NCBI GenBank assembly: GCA_028382965.1
Contig: JAOEUK010000005.1
Location: 1 to 64,000 of the forward strand
From: Candidatus Puniceispirillum sp.
GTDB taxonomy: Bacteria; Pseudomonadota; Alphaproteobacteria; Puniceispirillales; Puniceispirillaceae
Direction of reading: 5' to 3'
DNA length: 64,000 nucleotides
Below the pieces are notes generated by a model. The model searched no databases, was not told where the DNA came from, and saw only the letters and a list, made by a program, of their open reading frames with translations. Positions within the stretch are counted from its first letter, which is position 1. Each line of letters begins with the position of its first letter. Position numbers and translations under genes: made by a program. Below, one piece after another: positions 31,330 to 54,010 of this stretch.

Positions 31330-32301
31330 TCAATCTTCGATGTCGCCAGATCTAGTCAGAATACTCTCAACGAGTTGCTGGACCCGAAATGCCTCATCAA
31401 TTGTTGCGAGCAGGTTTGCTTCTCCTTTCATATGAAGTGACAGATTATCGAGCTGAGTTTTAAGGCTCACAGCACGTGGATCTTTCGGCGCTTCTCTTAA
31501 TGAAACGAAGTTTTCACCTTCGCTAATTGCATCCTTGTGAAAATCTGACACGCGGCGGCTACTTCTAGTACCTTTTATAGTGAACTCTTGTCTCTCAGGC
31601 TGAACGCCTCCAACAGTAGCCAAAATGGTAACAGGCTGCCCTTCCCCTGACTTCAATCGCGCTAGTACTGCCGTCTCGCACAAAGAAGGGTCTGTGGGAA
31701 AAGTAGCATTTGCGAAAACAAGCTTCAAAGGTCCAAGAACGCGCTCAGTAAAAAACAAAAAGTGTGAAATAACCTCTCTTGTCATTCCACCTTCAGCACG
31801 AAACCTGAGCCAATCAGCATCTTTTTGCCATTGCCGCGGCCAATTGGGATAAGTCACGATAATATCAACCCCAATTAATGTACCCATTTCTCCAGATTTT
31901 TTTGCATTTATAAGATCAGCTAAGGCTGCACCAGATGCTTGGGTAAAGTTCACAGCGATAGGCACATTATATCTTTTTAAACGATTAAGCAGTATTTCAC
32001 TATCTTTTATACAAATGCCAAACGGCTTTTCTAAGAACAAAGCTTTGCCGGATGAAACTGCCTCAATAGCATAGGTTTCACGGACAGCTGGCGGGCAAGC
32101 GAGATAAACTAGATCTGCTAGTTCTATAGCCTCGGTAGCAGTGCTCATTATTTTTGACTTTAGATCAAGCTTGCCAGCTTCTTGACAGGCTAATGGATCA
32201 GGATCCCATAAATAATCAGGTTCAAAATTATCATGCAACCGCATATGCATTAGCATCCGACGTCCCATAATACCCAGTCCAATAATTGCTACCTTGGCCA
32301 C
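31330..32301 (-). CDS. Gfo/Idh/MocA family oxidoreductase
   Basis: 323 residues from a GTG at 32301 with AAAGGGA nearby; an ATG at 32331 adds ten residues before the Rossmann start. VAIIGLGIMGRRML is the dinucleotide loop. YLACPPAVRETYAIEAVSSGKALFLEKPFGI contains the EKP motif whose Lys aids catalysis. VREVISHF-like EVISHFLFF follows. The family oxidises or reduces sugars and polyols with NAD(P). The substrate is unknown. It sits behind the divergent small genes at 32419 and 32659. Confidence 0.85.
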   Translation of the reverse strand: MAKVAIIGLGIMGRRMLMHMRLHDNFEPDYLWDPDPLACQEAGKLDLKSKIMSTATEAIELADLVYLACPPAVRETYAIEAVSSGKALFLEKPFGICIKDSEILLNRLKRYNVPIAVNFTQASGAALADLINAKKSGEMGTLIGVDIIVTYPNWPRQWQKDADWLRFRAEGGMTREVISHFLFFTERVLGPLKLVFANATFPTDPSLCETAVLARLKSGEGQPVTILATVGGVQPERQEFTIKGTRSSRRVSDFHKDAISEGENFVSLREAPKDPRAVSLKTQLDNLSLHMKGEANLLATIDEAFRVQQLVESILTRSGDIED

Positions 32302-32418
32302 AATAATTATCCCTTTATTTTTAACGATCAAAATTTACTAGTGATTTCAGTCTTATGATACGCTCAACGGCTTTTCCGTAACTCTTTTTTATAACAAAAT
32401 TCACAGGATCATAGAGAG

Positions 32419-32658: not shown

Positions 32659-32862
32659 TTGTCTAAAAATGAGTTCGATATTCATGAAGTTATTGAGATG
32701 GCGCTTAGTGATCATGCCAGTTTTCGTGACATAGAAAAGCTTCACGGACTAAATGCCGACGATGTAAAGCTGCTTATGCGAAAAAACCTTAAGCGTGGGA
32801 GTTACGAGGCTTGGCGACGCCGCGTCCGAAAATTCTCAGACCGGCGCGAACACTATAAATAA
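32659..32862 (+). CDS. TIGR03643/DUF2805-like small protein
   Basis: 67 residues from a TTG with AAGG about eight bases upstream. The pattern IHEVIEMALSDHASFRDIEKLHGL followed by VKLLMRKNLKRGSYEAWRRRV matches the small family I know as TIGR03643 (DUF2805), a compact helical, basic protein with helix-turn-helix character. Function is unknown; binding to nucleic acid is plausible from its charge. Conserved despite small size. Confidence 0.72.
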   Translation: MSKNEFDIHEVIEMALSDHASFRDIEKLHGLNADDVKLLMRKNLKRGSYEAWRRRVRKFSDRREHYK

Positions 32863-32965: not shown

Positions 32966-33181
32966 TTAATCTAAGCGACCCTCTTTATAAGCAGACCACA
33001 ACTCGTGCAACATTTCTTCAGCTTCTTCGTTTGAAAGAAATTGGGGTTTCTCTTCGAAATTACTAAACACCTGCCCAACAAATTCATCAGCAGATTTTGA
33101 TGTTGGCAAATAAAGCTCCGCCTTATGCAGAAAAATATGTAGATCGGTTGCCCATTTCTTCACCTCTTGATTTATAATCAT
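32966..33181 (-). CDS. small acidic protein, unknown
   Basis: 71 residues with a good ribosome binding site (GGAG seven bases before the ATG). It is predicted helical and acidic, without membrane segment or signal peptide, and ends AYKEGRLD. No family recognised. It lies 59 bases behind the SulP transporter gene on the same strand and probably shares its transcript. Confidence 0.6.
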   Translation of the reverse strand: MIINQEVKKWATDLHIFLHKAELYLPTSKSADEFVGQVFSNFEEKPQFLSNEEAEEMLHELWSAYKEGRLD

Positions 33182-33240: not shown

Positions 33241-34857
33241 TCAATGGGTAGTATCAAAAATGCCAACTTTGACGCGATAGTCTACAGCAATTCCATAATC
33301 AGGATCATCATCGCTGTCTATTATCAATTGACCAGATTTTGACAGCAACCTGTGACAATCCCGACTAATGTGGCGCAAGATTACAGTCTTACCGGCCACA
33401 TTATATTTTGCTGCAATATCCTCTATTGCCTGAAGAGCCGACTGATCAACAATGCGCGACTCTGAAAAATCAATAATAATTTTCTCTGGGTCATTTTTTA
33501 TATCAAAGAGTTCAAGAAAATTGGCGATTGAGCCAAAGAAAAGTGGACCCTTAATATCATATACCAATGCTCCCGACTCTCGAACTGAAGGGCGGATCGA
33601 CGCATTAATTCCCTTAGCCGCATTCCAAGCATACACCAAAGCAGACATTATTACCCCAACAATGACAGCAATGGCTAGATCTTCAATTACTGTCACAAAT
33701 GTAACTACGATGGTTACCAATGCATCAGCCCTCGGCACAATCAGAAGGCTCTTGAGCGAACTCCAGGCAAATGTTCCAATCACGACCATGAACATCACGC
33801 CGGTTAGAGCAGCAATTGGAATCGATTCAATAATTGGGCCAGTAAATAAGATAAAACATAATAGGAATAGCGCGGCGGTAATACCTGAAACCCGGCTTCG
33901 CCCTCCAGATTTAATGTTAATCATCGATTGCCCAATCATTGCACAACCGCCCATTCCGCCAAAAAATCCAGTTACAAGATTTGCCGCACCCTGAGCAACA
34001 CATTCCTGAGACGCGCCACCACGTTGATTGGTCATTTCACCAACAAGGTTTAGAGTTAATAAGCTCTCAATCAATCCAATTGACGCTAGAATAAAAGCAT
34101 AAGGAAAAATAATTATTAAGGTATCAAACGTAATGGGGACCATCGGAACTGCAAAGCTTGGCAAACCACCTGACAAACTAGCTAAATCGCCTACCCTCTG
34201 AACATCCAATCCAAACCCTAAAACAACGCTTGTAACAACACCAATAGCTACTAACGGCGCAGGCACAAGGCGTGTGAGCCGCGGGGTCAGCCAGATAAGA
34301 ACCATAGTCGCCACAACCAGTCCAAGAGTTAGGATTAGAGCATTTCCAGACAACCAGACTTTATCACCAGTGGCGTCAACGATCTTAAATTGTTCTATTT
34401 GCGCAAGACCAATAACTATTGCCAAACCGTTCACAAAACCTAACATCACTGGATGCGGAACCATTCTAATAAATTTTCCCCATCTCATAGCACCGGCAAA
34501 AAGTTGCAAAATGCCCATCAACACTACGGTTGCAAAAAGATACTGCACGCCATGTTGAGCAACAAGAGCGACCATCACCACTGCCAAAGCACCAGTAGCG
34601 CCAGAAATCATTCCTGGGCGGCCACCAAAAAAAGCAGTGATCAATCCAACTATGAAAGCAGCATATAATCCTACTAGAGGTGCTACCCCTGCTACAAAGG
34701 CGAACGCTATAGCCTCTGGAACCAGAGCCAATGAAACAGTTAGTCCCGACAAAACATCAAGATTTAATTGACGAAAATTCAAAAGTTTAGATGGTTCACT
34801 ATTATCCGTCGTGCCCAAAAGGAAATGAATTACGCGTGAATAAAAACTAAGGCGCAA
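33241..34857 (-). CDS. SulP family anion transporter with STAS domain
   Basis: 538 residues. The first 400 or so form the SulP membrane domain, with LTVSLALVPEAIAFAFVAG at about 36-54, FFGGRPGMISGATGA and VPHPVMLGFVNGLAI. GFFGGMGGCAMIGQSMINIKSGGRSR is the conserved central part. A STAS domain follows from about 430 (IIIDFSESRIVDQSALQAIEDIA). SulP proteins carry sulfate, bicarbonate or dicarboxylates, usually with sodium or protons. The start is TTG at 34857 and rests on the homologous N-terminus. Bicarbonate or sulfate are both possible in this genome. Confidence 0.9.
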   Translation of the reverse strand: MRLSFYSRVIHFLLGTTDNSEPSKLLNFRQLNLDVLSGLTVSLALVPEAIAFAFVAGVAPLVGLYAAFIVGLITAFFGGRPGMISGATGALAVVMVALVAQHGVQYLFATVVLMGILQLFAGAMRWGKFIRMVPHPVMLGFVNGLAIVIGLAQIEQFKIVDATGDKVWLSGNALILTLGLVVATMVLIWLTPRLTRLVPAPLVAIGVVTSVVLGFGLDVQRVGDLASLSGGLPSFAVPMVPITFDTLIIIFPYAFILASIGLIESLLTLNLVGEMTNQRGGASQECVAQGAANLVTGFFGGMGGCAMIGQSMINIKSGGRSRVSGITAALFLLCFILFTGPIIESIPIAALTGVMFMVVIGTFAWSSLKSLLIVPRADALVTIVVTFVTVIEDLAIAVIVGVIMSALVYAWNAAKGINASIRPSVRESGALVYDIKGPLFFGSIANFLELFDIKNDPEKIIIDFSESRIVDQSALQAIEDIAAKYNVAGKTVILRHISRDCHRLLSKSGQLIIDSDDDPDYGIAVDYRVKVGIFDTTH

Positions 34858-34967: not shown

Positions 34968-35360
34968 CTACAGATTCACTGGCTCGCCATGTGGCGTCTG
35001 AACATAGGCCTCTGCCCATTGTTCTTTAAGAGAATTAAGACTTTCAGTGTCACAAATCCCTTTATCCAGCATAAGCTCAATCAAGGTTTGCAGCCAAACC
35101 TGATAATAATCACCACTTCCATTCAATCCATGCTTTATACTATTGTCTAAGAATGCTTCATTAGAATTTGAAATAATTTGATTTTCTTTAAATTCTTAAA
35201 CCTCATTTTTTTTTGTATATTTTAGATTTTTACTCAAGCGTCTTGTCCATTCAGTCCAGCCAAAATGGCCTTTTTCGCTGAGGTGAACAGTCAATGCAAA
35301 TACTTCGGCATGCCATGGAACTTCAAAGACATAACTTGGCTCTGGCTTTTTAACCATCAT
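34968..35360 (-). pseudogene. nitrile hydratase accessory protein, interrupted by one stop
   Basis: Reading on the minus strand from ATG at 35360, which overlaps the end of the beta gene (ATGA), the frame encodes 54 residues including VFEVPWHAEVFALTVHLSEK and FGWTEWTRRL. This is the N-terminal pattern of nitrile hydratase activators/accessory proteins. TAA at 35196-35198 then interrupts. The same frame continues to TAG at 34968 and encodes the rest of the family: GSGDYYQVWLQTLIELML and a TPHGEPVNL end. No shift of frame is needed, so a single nonsense change removed the gene. The protein normally helps cobalt loading and subunit assembly. Confidence 0.85.
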
Positions 35361-36034
35361 AATTTTGGTTCAAGGTAACTCTCCCAGCAATCAACGATGA
35401 CGCTGTCACCCGGTTCTGCACTAATCCACAGATCTTCACTTGAAAATTCAACCGAGTAAAGCGGTTCGGGATTTTCTCCCAAAAAATGCGCATTGCTATT
35501 AGGGAGAACATGATGACCATGATAAAATAATATTACTCCAGTTTTACCAGCAGCATAATGCGGTAGCATTGTATGACCGGGACTTTGCAATAGAGTATCA
35601 GATGGCCTTTTGGTTTGCACTTTCTCCCCAATAAAGAGAGTGGGAGTGCCAGATGAAGGCCGAGAAGCTTTGGCGCCAGTTGCCAGCATACTAGGAACTG
35701 CATTTGCTCGGAGTGTTTTAGGATTTAATGGCTGGCGGATTTTATCATAAACACCGTTTTCAATTTCCTCAAGATCAACAAAACCTCGAGAAACAAATAG
35801 GTTATTGAGAGCCACCAGCCATTTTTCATAATAAGTATAAGACTGGTAATCCTCTTTGGGTAGAGTTTCACGTCTAAAACGCAATGTGTCGATACTCCAT
35901 GCACCCATAGCGCCACTAGCAACCGTTAGGCCAAGAACACGTTTATGCCATGAATATTCAAAAATAGGATCTTTTGGCTTGTCAGGTTTAACAGGGCCTG
36001 CCCGGCTTCCTCCTATATCGTGATACGGCCTCAT
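35357..36034 (-). CDS. nitrile hydratase beta subunit (likely orphaned)
   Basis: 225 residues from ATG at 36034; a Met 17 codons further upstream exists, but the family starts with MxxxHDxGG, here MRPYHDIGG. The C-terminal domain is present: SPGHTMLPHYAAGKTG, then NAHFLGENPEPLYSVEF and WESYLEPKL. The Arg-rich TRxPxYxRG stretch of the family, which contacts the metal site, reads TMLPHYAAG here, as far as I remember the consensus, so key arginines may be lost. The frame is open, but the alpha gene 13 bases upstream and the accessory gene behind it both carry stops, so the product probably has no partner. Nitrile hydratase turns nitriles into amides. Confidence 0.82.
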   Translation of the reverse strand: MRPYHDIGGSRAGPVKPDKPKDPIFEYSWHKRVLGLTVASGAMGAWSIDTLRFRRETLPKEDYQSYTYYEKWLVALNNLFVSRGFVDLEEIENGVYDKIRQPLNPKTLRANAVPSMLATGAKASRPSSGTPTLFIGEKVQTKRPSDTLLQSPGHTMLPHYAAGKTGVILFYHGHHVLPNSNAHFLGENPEPLYSVEFSSEDLWISAEPGDSVIVDCWESYLEPKL

Positions 36035-36047
36035 AGCTGAAACAAAT

Positions 36048-36671
36048 TCATGGCGTTGCAGGCGCTTGCGGCAAGCCAGTACCAATCATACTGTTGCGAC
36101 TGACCCATTTAGCCAGTGCTGTCTCAAAGAGCCCAAAACTGGCTGCAGGGCGCATGGGTAGAACCAGACAACGAATTTCAGCAGTCGAGTCCCAGACACG
36201 AATTTTTTGTTTTCTTGGAATGTTAACACCAAATTCCATTAATACGGATCGTGGTTCGCTAACAGCACGACTGCGATAAGCATCCGATTTTTACCATGCT
36301 GGAGGCACGCCAAGTAATGGCCACGGATAACAACTGCATAAAGTACAAACGACCAGATTGTGACATTCGAGCGTGTTCTCCACTATTACAATATGTTCAC
36401 CTTGTCGTCCCCCAAAACCAAGCTCTGATAGTATACCGTTAGTGTTATTTACAAGCTGCACATTAAAAGCTGGATCTTCCCAAGCTCACGCAACCAACCC
36501 CGCTCCGATGTGTGGGCCAATTTTATGCTCGTAATGATCAATGATAGCATCGACTGCGGCAGGATCAATCAACCCTTTTCTAACAAGTATCGTCTCAAGC
36601 GCTTTTACCCTTAATGCAGGTTCAGGGGGCAGTAGTGTGTGAGCATTTTCGTCGCTGTAATCATGTGGCAT
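36048..36671 (-). pseudogene. cobalt-type nitrile hydratase alpha subunit, two in-frame stops
   Basis: A single minus-strand frame of 208 codons from ATG at 36671 (MPHDYSDENAH) to 36048 covers the whole alpha subunit. It includes DAIIDHYEHKIGPH, ELGFGGRQGEHIVIVENT and the metal site VCTLCSCYPWPLLG. Thr in CTLCSC marks the cobalt type. The frame ends in EFGVNIPRKQKIRVWDST and NSMIGTG. Two nonsense codons interrupt it. TGA at 36486-36488 sits where VARAW needs Arg, and TAA at 36291-36293 sits where AWYK needs Tyr. No indel is needed. Both look like recent single-base changes, so the enzyme cannot be made without stop suppression. Confidence 0.88.
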
Positions 36672-36849: not shown

Positions 36850-37647
36850 ATGGAAGCACGGCTCGATGGACGAAATGCCATCATCACAGGAGGAAGCGCA
36901 GGCATAGGCAAAGCTATAGCCAAAAACTTTTTAAGTTCTGGCGCCAACGTTGCCATCATCGCGCGCCGAAGCGACGTACTAGAAGCAGCGAAAGTTGAAA
37001 TTGAGAGCTTAAAATCAATTGAAGGAAGCACTGGCAAAGTTTTTGCCCTATCTGCTGATATACGTCTTGCTGAGGAATGCAAAAATGTGGTCACCAAAGT
37101 TGAAGCAGAATTAGGCCATATTGATGTTCTAGTTAACAATGCCGGCACGTCCCAGCGTGGTGATTTTCTTGAGGTGACCGATGAGATATGGCAAGATGAT
37201 CTTGATCTAAAACTGTTTGCAGCTGTGCGATTGAGCCGTCTGATTATCCCTGGCATGCGATCACGCAAATGGGGCCGGATCATTAATGTTTTGAACCTCG
37301 GGGCAAAAGCTCCAAATGGTGGTGGTGCGCCTACTGCTGTTAGCAGAGCTGCGGGCATGGCTTTGACCAAGGTTCTTGCAAATGAAAATGCTGGCTTCAA
37401 CATTCTTGTAAATGGACTGTTGGTCGGTCGTATAAAAAGCGATCAATGGGAAAGAAGGCACGCAGCTGACACAAGAGGCCTTACACTTGAAGAGTGGTAT
37501 GAAGATGAGGCAAACAAGCTCAATATCGAGCGTTTTGGTACCGCAGAAGAATTTGCTAACATGGCAACTTTTCTGGCTTCGGATTCTGGGTCTTATATTA
37601 ATGGCACAGCAATCAATGTTGACGGAGGCAGTTGCCCCGTCGTTTAA
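36850..37647 (+). CDS. SDR family protein lacking the catalytic Tyr/Lys pair
   Basis: 265 residues with a good Rossmann part: TGGSAGIGKAIA (13-24), NNAGT (96-100) and a C-terminal GTAINVDGGS. The catalytic Ser-Tyr-Lys is altered: N149 replaces the Ser region (NVLNLGAK), and the YxxxK reads T162-A-V-S-R166. The rest of the helix (AAGMALTK) is intact. A subgroup of SDRs annotated as 3-oxoacyl reductase-like shows a similar PTxVSRAAG pattern as I recall it, so this may be lineage-typical. A normal dehydrogenase mechanism is unlikely. It is divergent from the nitrile hydratase locus and converges with the EamA gene at 37679. Confidence 0.82.
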   Translation: MEARLDGRNAIITGGSAGIGKAIAKNFLSSGANVAIIARRSDVLEAAKVEIESLKSIEGSTGKVFALSADIRLAEECKNVVTKVEAELGHIDVLVNNAGTSQRGDFLEVTDEIWQDDLDLKLFAAVRLSRLIIPGMRSRKWGRIINVLNLGAKAPNGGGAPTAVSRAAGMALTKVLANENAGFNILVNGLLVGRIKSDQWERRHAADTRGLTLEEWYEDEANKLNIERFGTAEEFANMATFLASDSGSYINGTAINVDGGSCPVV

Positions 37648-41895: not shown

Positions 41896-42966
41896 CTAGC
41901 TAAAGGTTACTGCCCTTCCATATTGATTTGGCACTGATGATGAGCTTCGCAACGCTTTTGCAGCACGCCATGTCCAGTGCGGATCTCGAAGAAACTCGCG
42001 TGCCAGTGCTACCATATCTGCCTGACCCGTCCGAAGAATTGTTTCAGCCTGAAAAGGATCGGTAATCATACCAACCGCAATCACTGGCATTGTAACTTGA
42101 TCGCGAACTCTCTTAGCCAGATCTGTCTGATAGCCATAACCGATATCAATCTTCTGAGCCAATGAGTTGCCACCGCTGGACACATGAATAGATGCACACC
42201 CTGCCGCATCAAGGGCCTTGGCGAATTCAATAGTTTGATCAATGTCCCAACCACCATCAACCCAATCAGTCGCAGACACTCGTACAAGGATTGGCATGTC
42301 AGATGGAACCACTGCCTTAACTGCATCAAAGATTTCCAATGGATACCGCAATCGGTTTTCAAGGGCACCACCATATTGGTCTGTTCGCTTATTACTGATT
42401 GGTGACAAAAATTGATGTAACAAATAACCATGAGCGCCATGAAGCTCGATAGCGTCAATCCCCATTCTGACAGCACGCTTTGCCGCCTGAATAAAATTCT
42501 GTTTGACACGATCCAGTCCAGCTGAATCAAGTGCTTCAGGTGTGTGCCATCCTTCGGTAAAAGGGATTGAAGAAGGTCCATAAGTTTGCCAAGCATTTTT
42601 TGAGAGAGCGTTACCCCCTTCCCATGGCCTTTCAGTTGAAGCTTTACGACCTGCATGACCTAACTGAATACCGATTTTGCTATCACCAACAGACTTACAA
42701 AAATCAATGACGCGTTTCATTGCAGACTCGTTTTCGTCTGAATATAGCCCGCAACATCCGTGTGTAATTCGCCCCAATGCCTCGACCCCAGTTGCTTCAA
42801 TGATAATTAGACCAGCACCAGTCATGGCAAACTGGCCTAGGTGCGCCAAATGCCAGTCATTCATTGTTCCTTCATTAGCTGAATATTGGCACATAGGCGC
42901 CACAACGACACGATTAGTGAGGGCTAGCCCAGATAGTTCAATTGGAGAAAATAACCTACTCGACAT
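41896..42966 (-). CDS. NADH:flavin oxidoreductase, Old Yellow Enzyme family
   Basis: 356 residues, length and pattern of YqjM/xenobiotic-reductase-type enzymes. LFSPIELSGLALTNRVVVAPMCQYSA has the Cys near FMN, and ELHGAHGYLLHQFLSPISNKRTDQYGG contains the His pair that binds the substrate oxygen. AREFLRDPHWTWRAAKAL closes the FMN phosphate site. These enzymes reduce the double bond of unsaturated aldehydes, ketones or nitro compounds with NAD(P)H. AGGAG nine bases before the ATG fixes the start. Confidence 0.93.
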   Translation of the reverse strand: MSSRLFSPIELSGLALTNRVVVAPMCQYSANEGTMNDWHLAHLGQFAMTGAGLIIIEATGVEALGRITHGCCGLYSDENESAMKRVIDFCKSVGDSKIGIQLGHAGRKASTERPWEGGNALSKNAWQTYGPSSIPFTEGWHTPEALDSAGLDRVKQNFIQAAKRAVRMGIDAIELHGAHGYLLHQFLSPISNKRTDQYGGALENRLRYPLEIFDAVKAVVPSDMPILVRVSATDWVDGGWDIDQTIEFAKALDAAGCASIHVSSGGNSLAQKIDIGYGYQTDLAKRVRDQVTMPVIAVGMITDPFQAETILRTGQADMVALAREFLRDPHWTWRAAKALRSSSSVPNQYGRAVTFS

Positions 42967-52892: not shown

Positions 52893-53705
52893 TTAACTCC
52901 ACAACTTATAGAAGTGATGAACCGGTCCGTGCCCCTGGCCTATCTCTAAATGGTCAGCAGCCTTAATCGCTTCATGGAGCCAAAGATGCGCCTCACCTGT
53001 CGCTTCATCAAGCGCCAAACCTTTTGCAATTCCAGCAGTAATTGCAGATGAAAACGAGCATCCCGTACCATGAGTATTACCAGTACCAAGCCGCGGAGAT
53101 TCAAATTTAACTATTTTATTGTCAGTTATCAAATAATCACAACATATGGGTCCATCAGCATGTCCACCCTTCAATAACACCGCTTTGGGACCAAGAGCCA
53201 ACAAAGCCTTCCCCTGCTCAACTAACGCAAGACCATGATCTAATGACAGTAAACGTGTTGCCTCAGGAATGTTGGGAGTTAAAAGAGATGCCAGCGGTAA
53301 AAGCTTATCAATAAGACTGGCCACTGCATCATCATGCAATAAAGCATCTCCTGATTTTGCTACCATAACTGGATCAAGAACAATTGGCCCCTCATAATTG
53401 GCAAGTGCGCTCGCTACCACCTCAATCACTTCTGGCGTGCCAAGCATCCCAATTTTGATAGCGTCAATCCGAATGTCATCTAAAACAGCTTTGATTTGCG
53501 CATCAATCATTTCTGGAGATACAGTCTCAACCAAAGTCACCGCAAGTGTATTCTGCGCAGTAATTGCTGTTAAAACACTGGCTCCATAAACCCCGTGGGC
53601 AGAAAAACTTTTTAAATCTGCCTGAATACCCGCTCCACCGCCACTGTCTGAACCAGCAATAGTTAAAGCTGTTGTAACCGGTTTTTTAAAATTATTTTTA
53701 CGCAA
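52893..53705 (-). CDS. thiD: hydroxymethylpyrimidine (phosphate) kinase
   Basis: 270 residues. TIAGSDSGGGAGIQADLKSFSAHGVYGASVLTAITAQNT is the ThiD N-terminus. VLDPVMVAKSGDALL, LLTPNIPEA, VLLKGGH and GTGNTHGTGCSFSSAI, with the catalytic base region, complete the ribokinase-like fold. It phosphorylates hydroxymethylpyrimidine twice. As first gene of the operon it follows the TPP riboswitch by about 57 bases. Free pyrimidine from salvage can enter here. Confidence 0.95.
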   Translation of the reverse strand: MRKNNFKKPVTTALTIAGSDSGGGAGIQADLKSFSAHGVYGASVLTAITAQNTLAVTLVETVSPEMIDAQIKAVLDDIRIDAIKIGMLGTPEVIEVVASALANYEGPIVLDPVMVAKSGDALLHDDAVASLIDKLLPLASLLTPNIPEATRLLSLDHGLALVEQGKALLALGPKAVLLKGGHADGPICCDYLITDNKIVKFESPRLGTGNTHGTGCSFSSAITAGIAKGLALDEATGEAHLWLHEAIKAADHLEIGQGHGPVHHFYKLWS

Positions 53706-53762
53706 AATAACATCCCAAATATTCTGTTTTGGGACAAGAGAATAGCCATTTAGATTTTGGTT

Positions 53763-53866
53763 AATCTCCGTTCCCTACGCCAGTTTTAACTGGATCAGGT
53801 TCTATGGGTTAGCTTTTGCCTCTCAGCCTTAAAATTATCTTTCGAACAAATTAAGGCACCCCAACA
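53763..53866 (-). ncRNA. TPP riboswitch (THI element)
   Basis: Read on the minus strand, the element starts with GTTGGGGTGCC. A stem GCCTTAA/TTAAGGC follows, then CTGAGAGG, ACCCATAGAACCTGATC and a helix CCAGTT/AACTGG leading into GCGTAGGGAACGGAG. These are the strictly conserved blocks of the thiamin pyrophosphate aptamer in the right order. It lies ahead of thiD, so high TPP should shut down the whole ten-gene operon, most likely at translation because no strong terminator hairpin is visible between it and thiD. Confidence 0.95.
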
Positions 53867-54010
53867 GATAAAAATGTTTTAACTGGCCAACGATGTATTT
53901 TCAAGACAAAAATAATGGAAAATTGTCTCTAGCCAATGTATTTTATATCTATCATTTTAAAGGTAACTCCTCTTAGCCTCTTGAAACTAATCAAGTGATA
54001 AGGATAAATC

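Follow-up and report, generated by a model that had tools for sequence, protein, structure and literature searches.

A cobalt-type nitrile hydratase operon (alpha, beta and activator genes), vertically inherited in a SAR116-related lineage, appears to have lost its function recently, a reading to which we would give a probability of about 0.86. The operon lies in a stretch of 64,000 nucleotides from Candidatus Puniceispirillum sp. (the window), part of contig C35 in an assembly of 2.38 Mb in 39 contigs that is rated 99.63% complete. Two in-frame stop codons interrupt the alpha gene and one interrupts the accessory (activator) gene, while the beta gene is open. The features discussed here are listed in Table 1.

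Table 1. Nitrile hydratase operon of the window, its adjoining genes and the changes found in it
Feature	Position in window	Strand	Basis or remark
SulP-family transporter gene, intact	33241..34857	-	beside accessory gene, likewise in six relatives
Accessory gene (activator, P14K-like), broken by one TAA	34968..35357	-	TIGR03889
A-rich variable linker of accessory gene, contains TAA	35130..35222	-	alignment
TAA in accessory gene	35196..35198	-	translation, alignment
Nitrile hydratase beta gene, open, 225 codons	35357..36034	-	TIGR03888
Nitrile hydratase alpha gene, broken, two in-frame stops	36048..36671	-	NHase_alpha and TIGR01323 profiles
Missense Y168C, alpha column invariant in 40 homologues	36168..36170	-	alignment
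TAA, alpha codon 127	36291..36293	-	translation, alignment
CTLCSC metal site	alpha codons 109-114	-	downstream of first stop
Missense K70N, alpha column invariant in 40 homologues	36462..36464	-	alignment
TGA, alpha codon 62	36486..36488	-	translation, alignment
SDR gene, intact	36850..37647	+	adjoins alpha, in relatives too

The alpha gene translates in a single frame throughout its 207 codons. With X placed at the stops, its product scored 251 bits against Pfam NHase_alpha, over profile positions 3-183 of 184 (the nine alphas from operons of this type elsewhere in the genus reach 264-273 bits), and 263 bits against the TIGR01323 equivalog, whose cut-off is 249.85. The first-pass annotation had placed the TGA where Arg is expected and the TAA where Tyr is expected, and had proposed a comparison of these sites with relatives, in which both proved to be sense codons in the congeners. 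Codon 62 is CGC, CGT or CGG, all encoding Arg, and codon 127 is TAT, in each of the seven congeners aligned. At the protein level, position 62 is Arg in all nine congeners aligning across the site, and Lys (30/40) or Arg (10/40) in a set of 40 homologues made up of the nine congeners, the 30 best-scoring loci of the order and a second copy from genome G013; position 127 is Tyr in 40/40. The frame is the same after the stops, and the metal site described earlier is indeed kept: Cys109, Cys112, Ser113 and Cys114 are retained in the window alpha and in all 40 homologues. We take the CTLCSC sequence to mark the cobalt type of nitrile hydratase alpha; the top solved-structure matches are Co-type alphas, with 3qxe first.

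The beta gene was confirmed to be free of internal stops and reached 181.3 bits against the TIGR03888 equivalog (cut-off 152.2). A search with it retrieved five named relatives at 67-71% identity: records of the SAR116 cluster or Candidatus Puniceispirillum, and one alphaproteobacterial MAG, which suggest a marine bacterium of SAR116 type as the host. The chance that all three stops would miss beta is 0.23, so its open frame needs no special cause. The accessory protein, with X at its stop, scored 74.5 bits against TIGR03889 (cut-off 46), and its N- and C-terminal parts are both recognisable in the same frame. The TAA reported in this gene is present and the frame is the same on both sides, but the accompanying claim of conservation on both sides is true only farther from the stop. 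The stop falls between conserved blocks, in a linker where the alignment is arbitrary and offers no conserved counterpart; for this reason, the earlier statement that it interrupts conserved sequence was loose. Compared with G003 and G012, the linker has 17 additional alignment columns, the exact place of the extra codons being ambiguous, and a change of length with the frame kept is thus present at the locus. The remaining two frames of the linker contain more stops.

Among the genomes of the order compared, internal stops in alpha are confined to the one under study. Within the genus, an alpha match was found in 10 of 16 genomes (the window's own included), and only the window's has internal stops; a further 31 alpha residues at a contig end of G009 went unreported by the family search. 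Within the order, 87 alpha matches, two of them partial (G080 and G121), are distributed over 82 of 136 genomes, and again the window's is the only one interrupted. Homologues with the same stops, which the earlier description had named, if full-length protein were detected, as evidence against a loss, are absent among the other 86. The window's assembly has one alpha match, and no second nitrile hydratase alpha was found in it at its completeness of 99.63%. Although nitrile hydratase alpha is common in the order (82/136 genomes), the literature found does not link SAR116 to this enzyme: no report joining nitrile hydratase with SAR116 or Puniceispirillum came up, which does not establish that the case is absent from print.

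The surroundings of the operon are shared as well. It is flanked by the SDR and SulP-family genes also in G005, G007, G011, G014, G015 and G001 (in the last, the contig ends inside the SDR gene), and alpha and beta are open in the relatives, so that working orthologues occupy the same place. In G003 and G012 the SDR gene is present, and the next match downstream of the accessory gene is a homologue of window positions 31330-32331. The same neighbours in relatives indicate that the operon was vertically inherited, in place. It is probably dispensable in the genus, because in G010, an assembly with a completeness rating of 100%, the SDR gene has a relative at 72% identity but alpha has no match.

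Several other observations were made at these loci. The alpha of G003 stops a few residues before that of its sister G012, with a stop where G012 has Gln, which is probably harmless C-terminal variation. In G014 (L087, G014:C6:200000-218000) the pirin gene appears as two overlapping matches, the IMS polymerase gene has seven stops in the aligned stretch, and the C-terminus of the accessory gene is altered; these oddities look like indel faults of the G014 assembly, or decay. G013 carries a second, divergent nitrile hydratase alpha (L011, G013:C3:59542-60078), with, as judged by eye, beta-like pieces upstream and an acyltransferase-like gene downstream, an order unlike that of the operon studied here. 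In the window itself (32659-32862 and 32966-33181), a small DUF2805 gene lies between those for the GFO/IDH oxidoreductase and SulP, with a 71-codon minus-strand ORF beside it that has no Pfam match and by eye resembles an ORF in L010. Rfam models run over the window at gathering scores gave one match only, a TPP riboswitch distant from the operon (53755-53873, minus strand), directly upstream of the ORF at 52893-53705 on the same strand.

The stops are accompanied by missense changes. In a leave-one-out comparison of 41 alpha sequences, that of the window departs at three otherwise invariant columns (K70N, Y127stop and Y168C), whereas 38 of the 41 rows show no departure, one departs once and the distant G013 copy departs 28 times. 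These departures support decay rather than prove it, because one other family of the order is over-represented in the set and the window branch is long. When only congeners were compared, the window's departures from invariant columns numbered 10 of 159 in alpha (0.063, the two stops included), 14 of 139 in beta (0.101) and, for the accessory gene, 8 of 54 (0.148), versus 0.037-0.082 in seven neighbour genes. Compared with the neighbours, alpha departures are ordinary, and those of beta and the accessory gene are somewhat high.

The age of the loss was approached with a codon branch model that gave the window's branch a separate omega, on a tree of nine regional genes that included alpha and beta. 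Eight genomes entered the test; three further ones (G001, G009 and G013) were set aside as distant or represented by partial contigs, and the activator, pirin and IMS genes of G014 were excluded as apparently frameshifted. After removal of columns with excessive gaps, 105 of 159 remained in the accessory gene. Omega on the window branch versus the rest of the tree was 0.080 versus 0.092 for alpha (p 0.67), 0.076 versus 0.144 for beta (p 0.08, the tip being lower) and 0.255 versus 0.214 for the accessory gene (p 0.69), so that none of the three shows a significant rise on this branch. These estimates are rough because the neutral change on the window branch is about 0.8-1.9 per site, and the baseline is loose because the tip-to-rest ratio in the seven control neighbour genes spans 0.01 to 1.21. 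Three of the controls are significantly low at the tip, namely the DMT gene, the Oxidored_FMN gene at 41896-42966 and the SulP gene, the last with an implausible tip omega of 0.001.

The tip was then modelled as part constrained and part neutral time, with a joint profile over the three genes and a log-likelihood drop of 1.92. The upper bound on the neutral share of the branch is about 0.08, 0.05 and 0.03 for assumed baseline ratios of 0.5, 0.75 and 1, respectively (values read between grid points), the best fraction being 0.04 at a baseline of 0.5 and zero at 0.75 and 1; the neutral substitutions accumulated would therefore number a few hundredths per site at most. Under this model, purifying selection would have acted along nearly all of the lineage, with a neutral part of at most around 3-8% of the branch. 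From the stops themselves, a neutral nonsense supply of 84.7 per substitution per site over 1674 sites makes three of them correspond to a K of 0.035 (95% 0.007-0.10), which is compatible with the branch-test bound; the present neutrality of the operon is deduced from the stops and not from the rates. The suggestion of a very recent loss made in the first-pass annotation fits all of this: stops occur in one of the 82 alpha-bearing genomes of the order, the branch still bears the signature of purifying selection, and three nonsense changes are what a short neutral time could yield.

It had also been pointed out that the damage consists of nonsense changes only. That part stands, as no frameshift appears in the alignments of the alpha, beta and accessory genes, but the argument attached to it, that decay normally adds indels, was too strong. 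Measured indel to substitution ratios are 106:779 in Teredinibacter turnerae (PMC5833318) and 41:205 and 54:1147 in two Pseudoalteromonas (PMC12053903). At such ratios, measured in marine bacteria, the probability that three events would be three nonsense changes and no frameshift is 0.01-0.24. In Salmonella, a single inactivating mutation accounts for 346 of 378 pseudogenes, and premature stops account for 131 of these 346 (PMC2916853). The missing frameshift is only mildly unusual and would not count as a finding on its own. Like the young pseudogenes of Salmonella described there, the window operon would have been inactivated by point mutation; unlike them, it carries three stops over two genes of one operon.

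The stops could instead be base errors of sequencing or assembly, or reflect a collapsed mixture of strains, with the gene intact in the cell, which we regard as unlikely. False internal stops in public assemblies of low coverage or read quality are documented (PMC11017572), both alpha stops strike otherwise conserved codons, and selection on the window branch looks almost unrelaxed. Such a fault would, however, need to be local. In the same assembly, internal stops are absent from 56/56 ABC ATPase and 5/5 amidase matches and from all SDR matches among those listed (11 of 12), which makes genome-wide miscalling very unlikely, and the seven neighbour genes are open over the full length of their orthologues. 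The faults of G014, in a stretch that is apparently damaged by indels, look like frameshifts. The missense changes at invariant alpha sites also speak for decay, although a local error could produce these too.

A different objection is that full-length enzyme is made by read-through of the stops, which a suppressor tRNA, recoding or a leaky context could allow; this seems very improbable. The intact frame across three stops and the conserved residues downstream of them would agree with it, but a recent loss predicts conservation past the stops equally well, the alpha gene carries two different stop codons, and the order's 86 other alpha matches contain none. A search for suppressor tRNAs, also proposed in the earlier description, which did not favour suppression, bears out that judgement: among all 34 tRNAs found in the assembly with the Rfam tRNA model, ARAGORN recognised no anticodon for UAA, UAG or UGA, and the 64-kb window holds no tRNA. 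Two open genes of the assembly match the prfA model, one above the cut-off (prfA, encoding RF1) and one weaker that is presumed to be prfB, for RF2. The tRNA set and the release factors led us to reject a suppressor tRNA or an altered code, and no signal of structured RNA was obtained near the first stop, the fold around the TGA being ordinary (z -0.31). Translation of the locus via an unrecognised read-through, yielding a full-length or two-piece nitrile hydratase under selection, is hardly credible either. As a separate observation, tRNA-Ile with anticodon GAT is missing among the 34 tRNAs, perhaps lost in an unassembled rRNA operon.

Scarcely any weight can be given to the idea that alpha and the activator are dead while beta, or the C-terminal piece of alpha, is kept for another role: beta is open with an omega of 0.076 on the window branch, but it would escape the stops by chance often enough, it departs from invariant congener columns more often than the seven neighbour genes, and the branch test is unable to separate the time before the loss from the time after. 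The part of alpha past the TAA does lie just above the cut-off of TIGR03793 leader_NHLP (51.8 versus 50.9 bits), but the four intact nitrile hydratase alphas tested all score higher (59-67 bits), so the match is a general property of these proteins and a reading of the alpha C-terminus as an NHLP/RiPP precursor was rejected.

Most probably, then, the loss of nitrile hydratase is real and recent, and represents ordinary gene decay. In the Pseudomonas putida NRRL-18668 type of Co-type nitrile hydratase (P14K activator), cobalt is described as entering activator-bound alpha, with the loaded alpha then being swapped into the enzyme (PMC3511329). The window operon has its three genes in the same order, and shares with the Co-type enzymes the CTLCSC site, 3qxe as best structure match and scores above three equivalog cut-offs (X at the stops); it differs in the two stops of alpha and the one of the activator, and the activator linker is longer than that of the congeners. 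Judged by its alpha, beta and activator genes, the operon would be of cobalt type, and the open frames for a predicted active enzyme are missing. Translation would end at alpha codon 62, before the metal site, so that no metal-binding alpha would be made and the open beta would be left without a partner; the activator would end in its linker, truncated too. The maturation pathway would be cut twice, because alpha ends before the metal site and the activator in its linker. Once function is gone all three genes would drift, and a short neutral period may account for the three stops together with the two missense changes at invariant sites. The amidase matches of the genome are open (5/5), which is neutral as to the loss.

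Nitrile hydration should not be assigned to this genome from profile matches, whose scores stay high through the stops. The case matters little beyond annotation, besides providing a roughly dated example of a bacterium that is starting to lose a catabolic operon, with nonsense changes and so far no frameshift.
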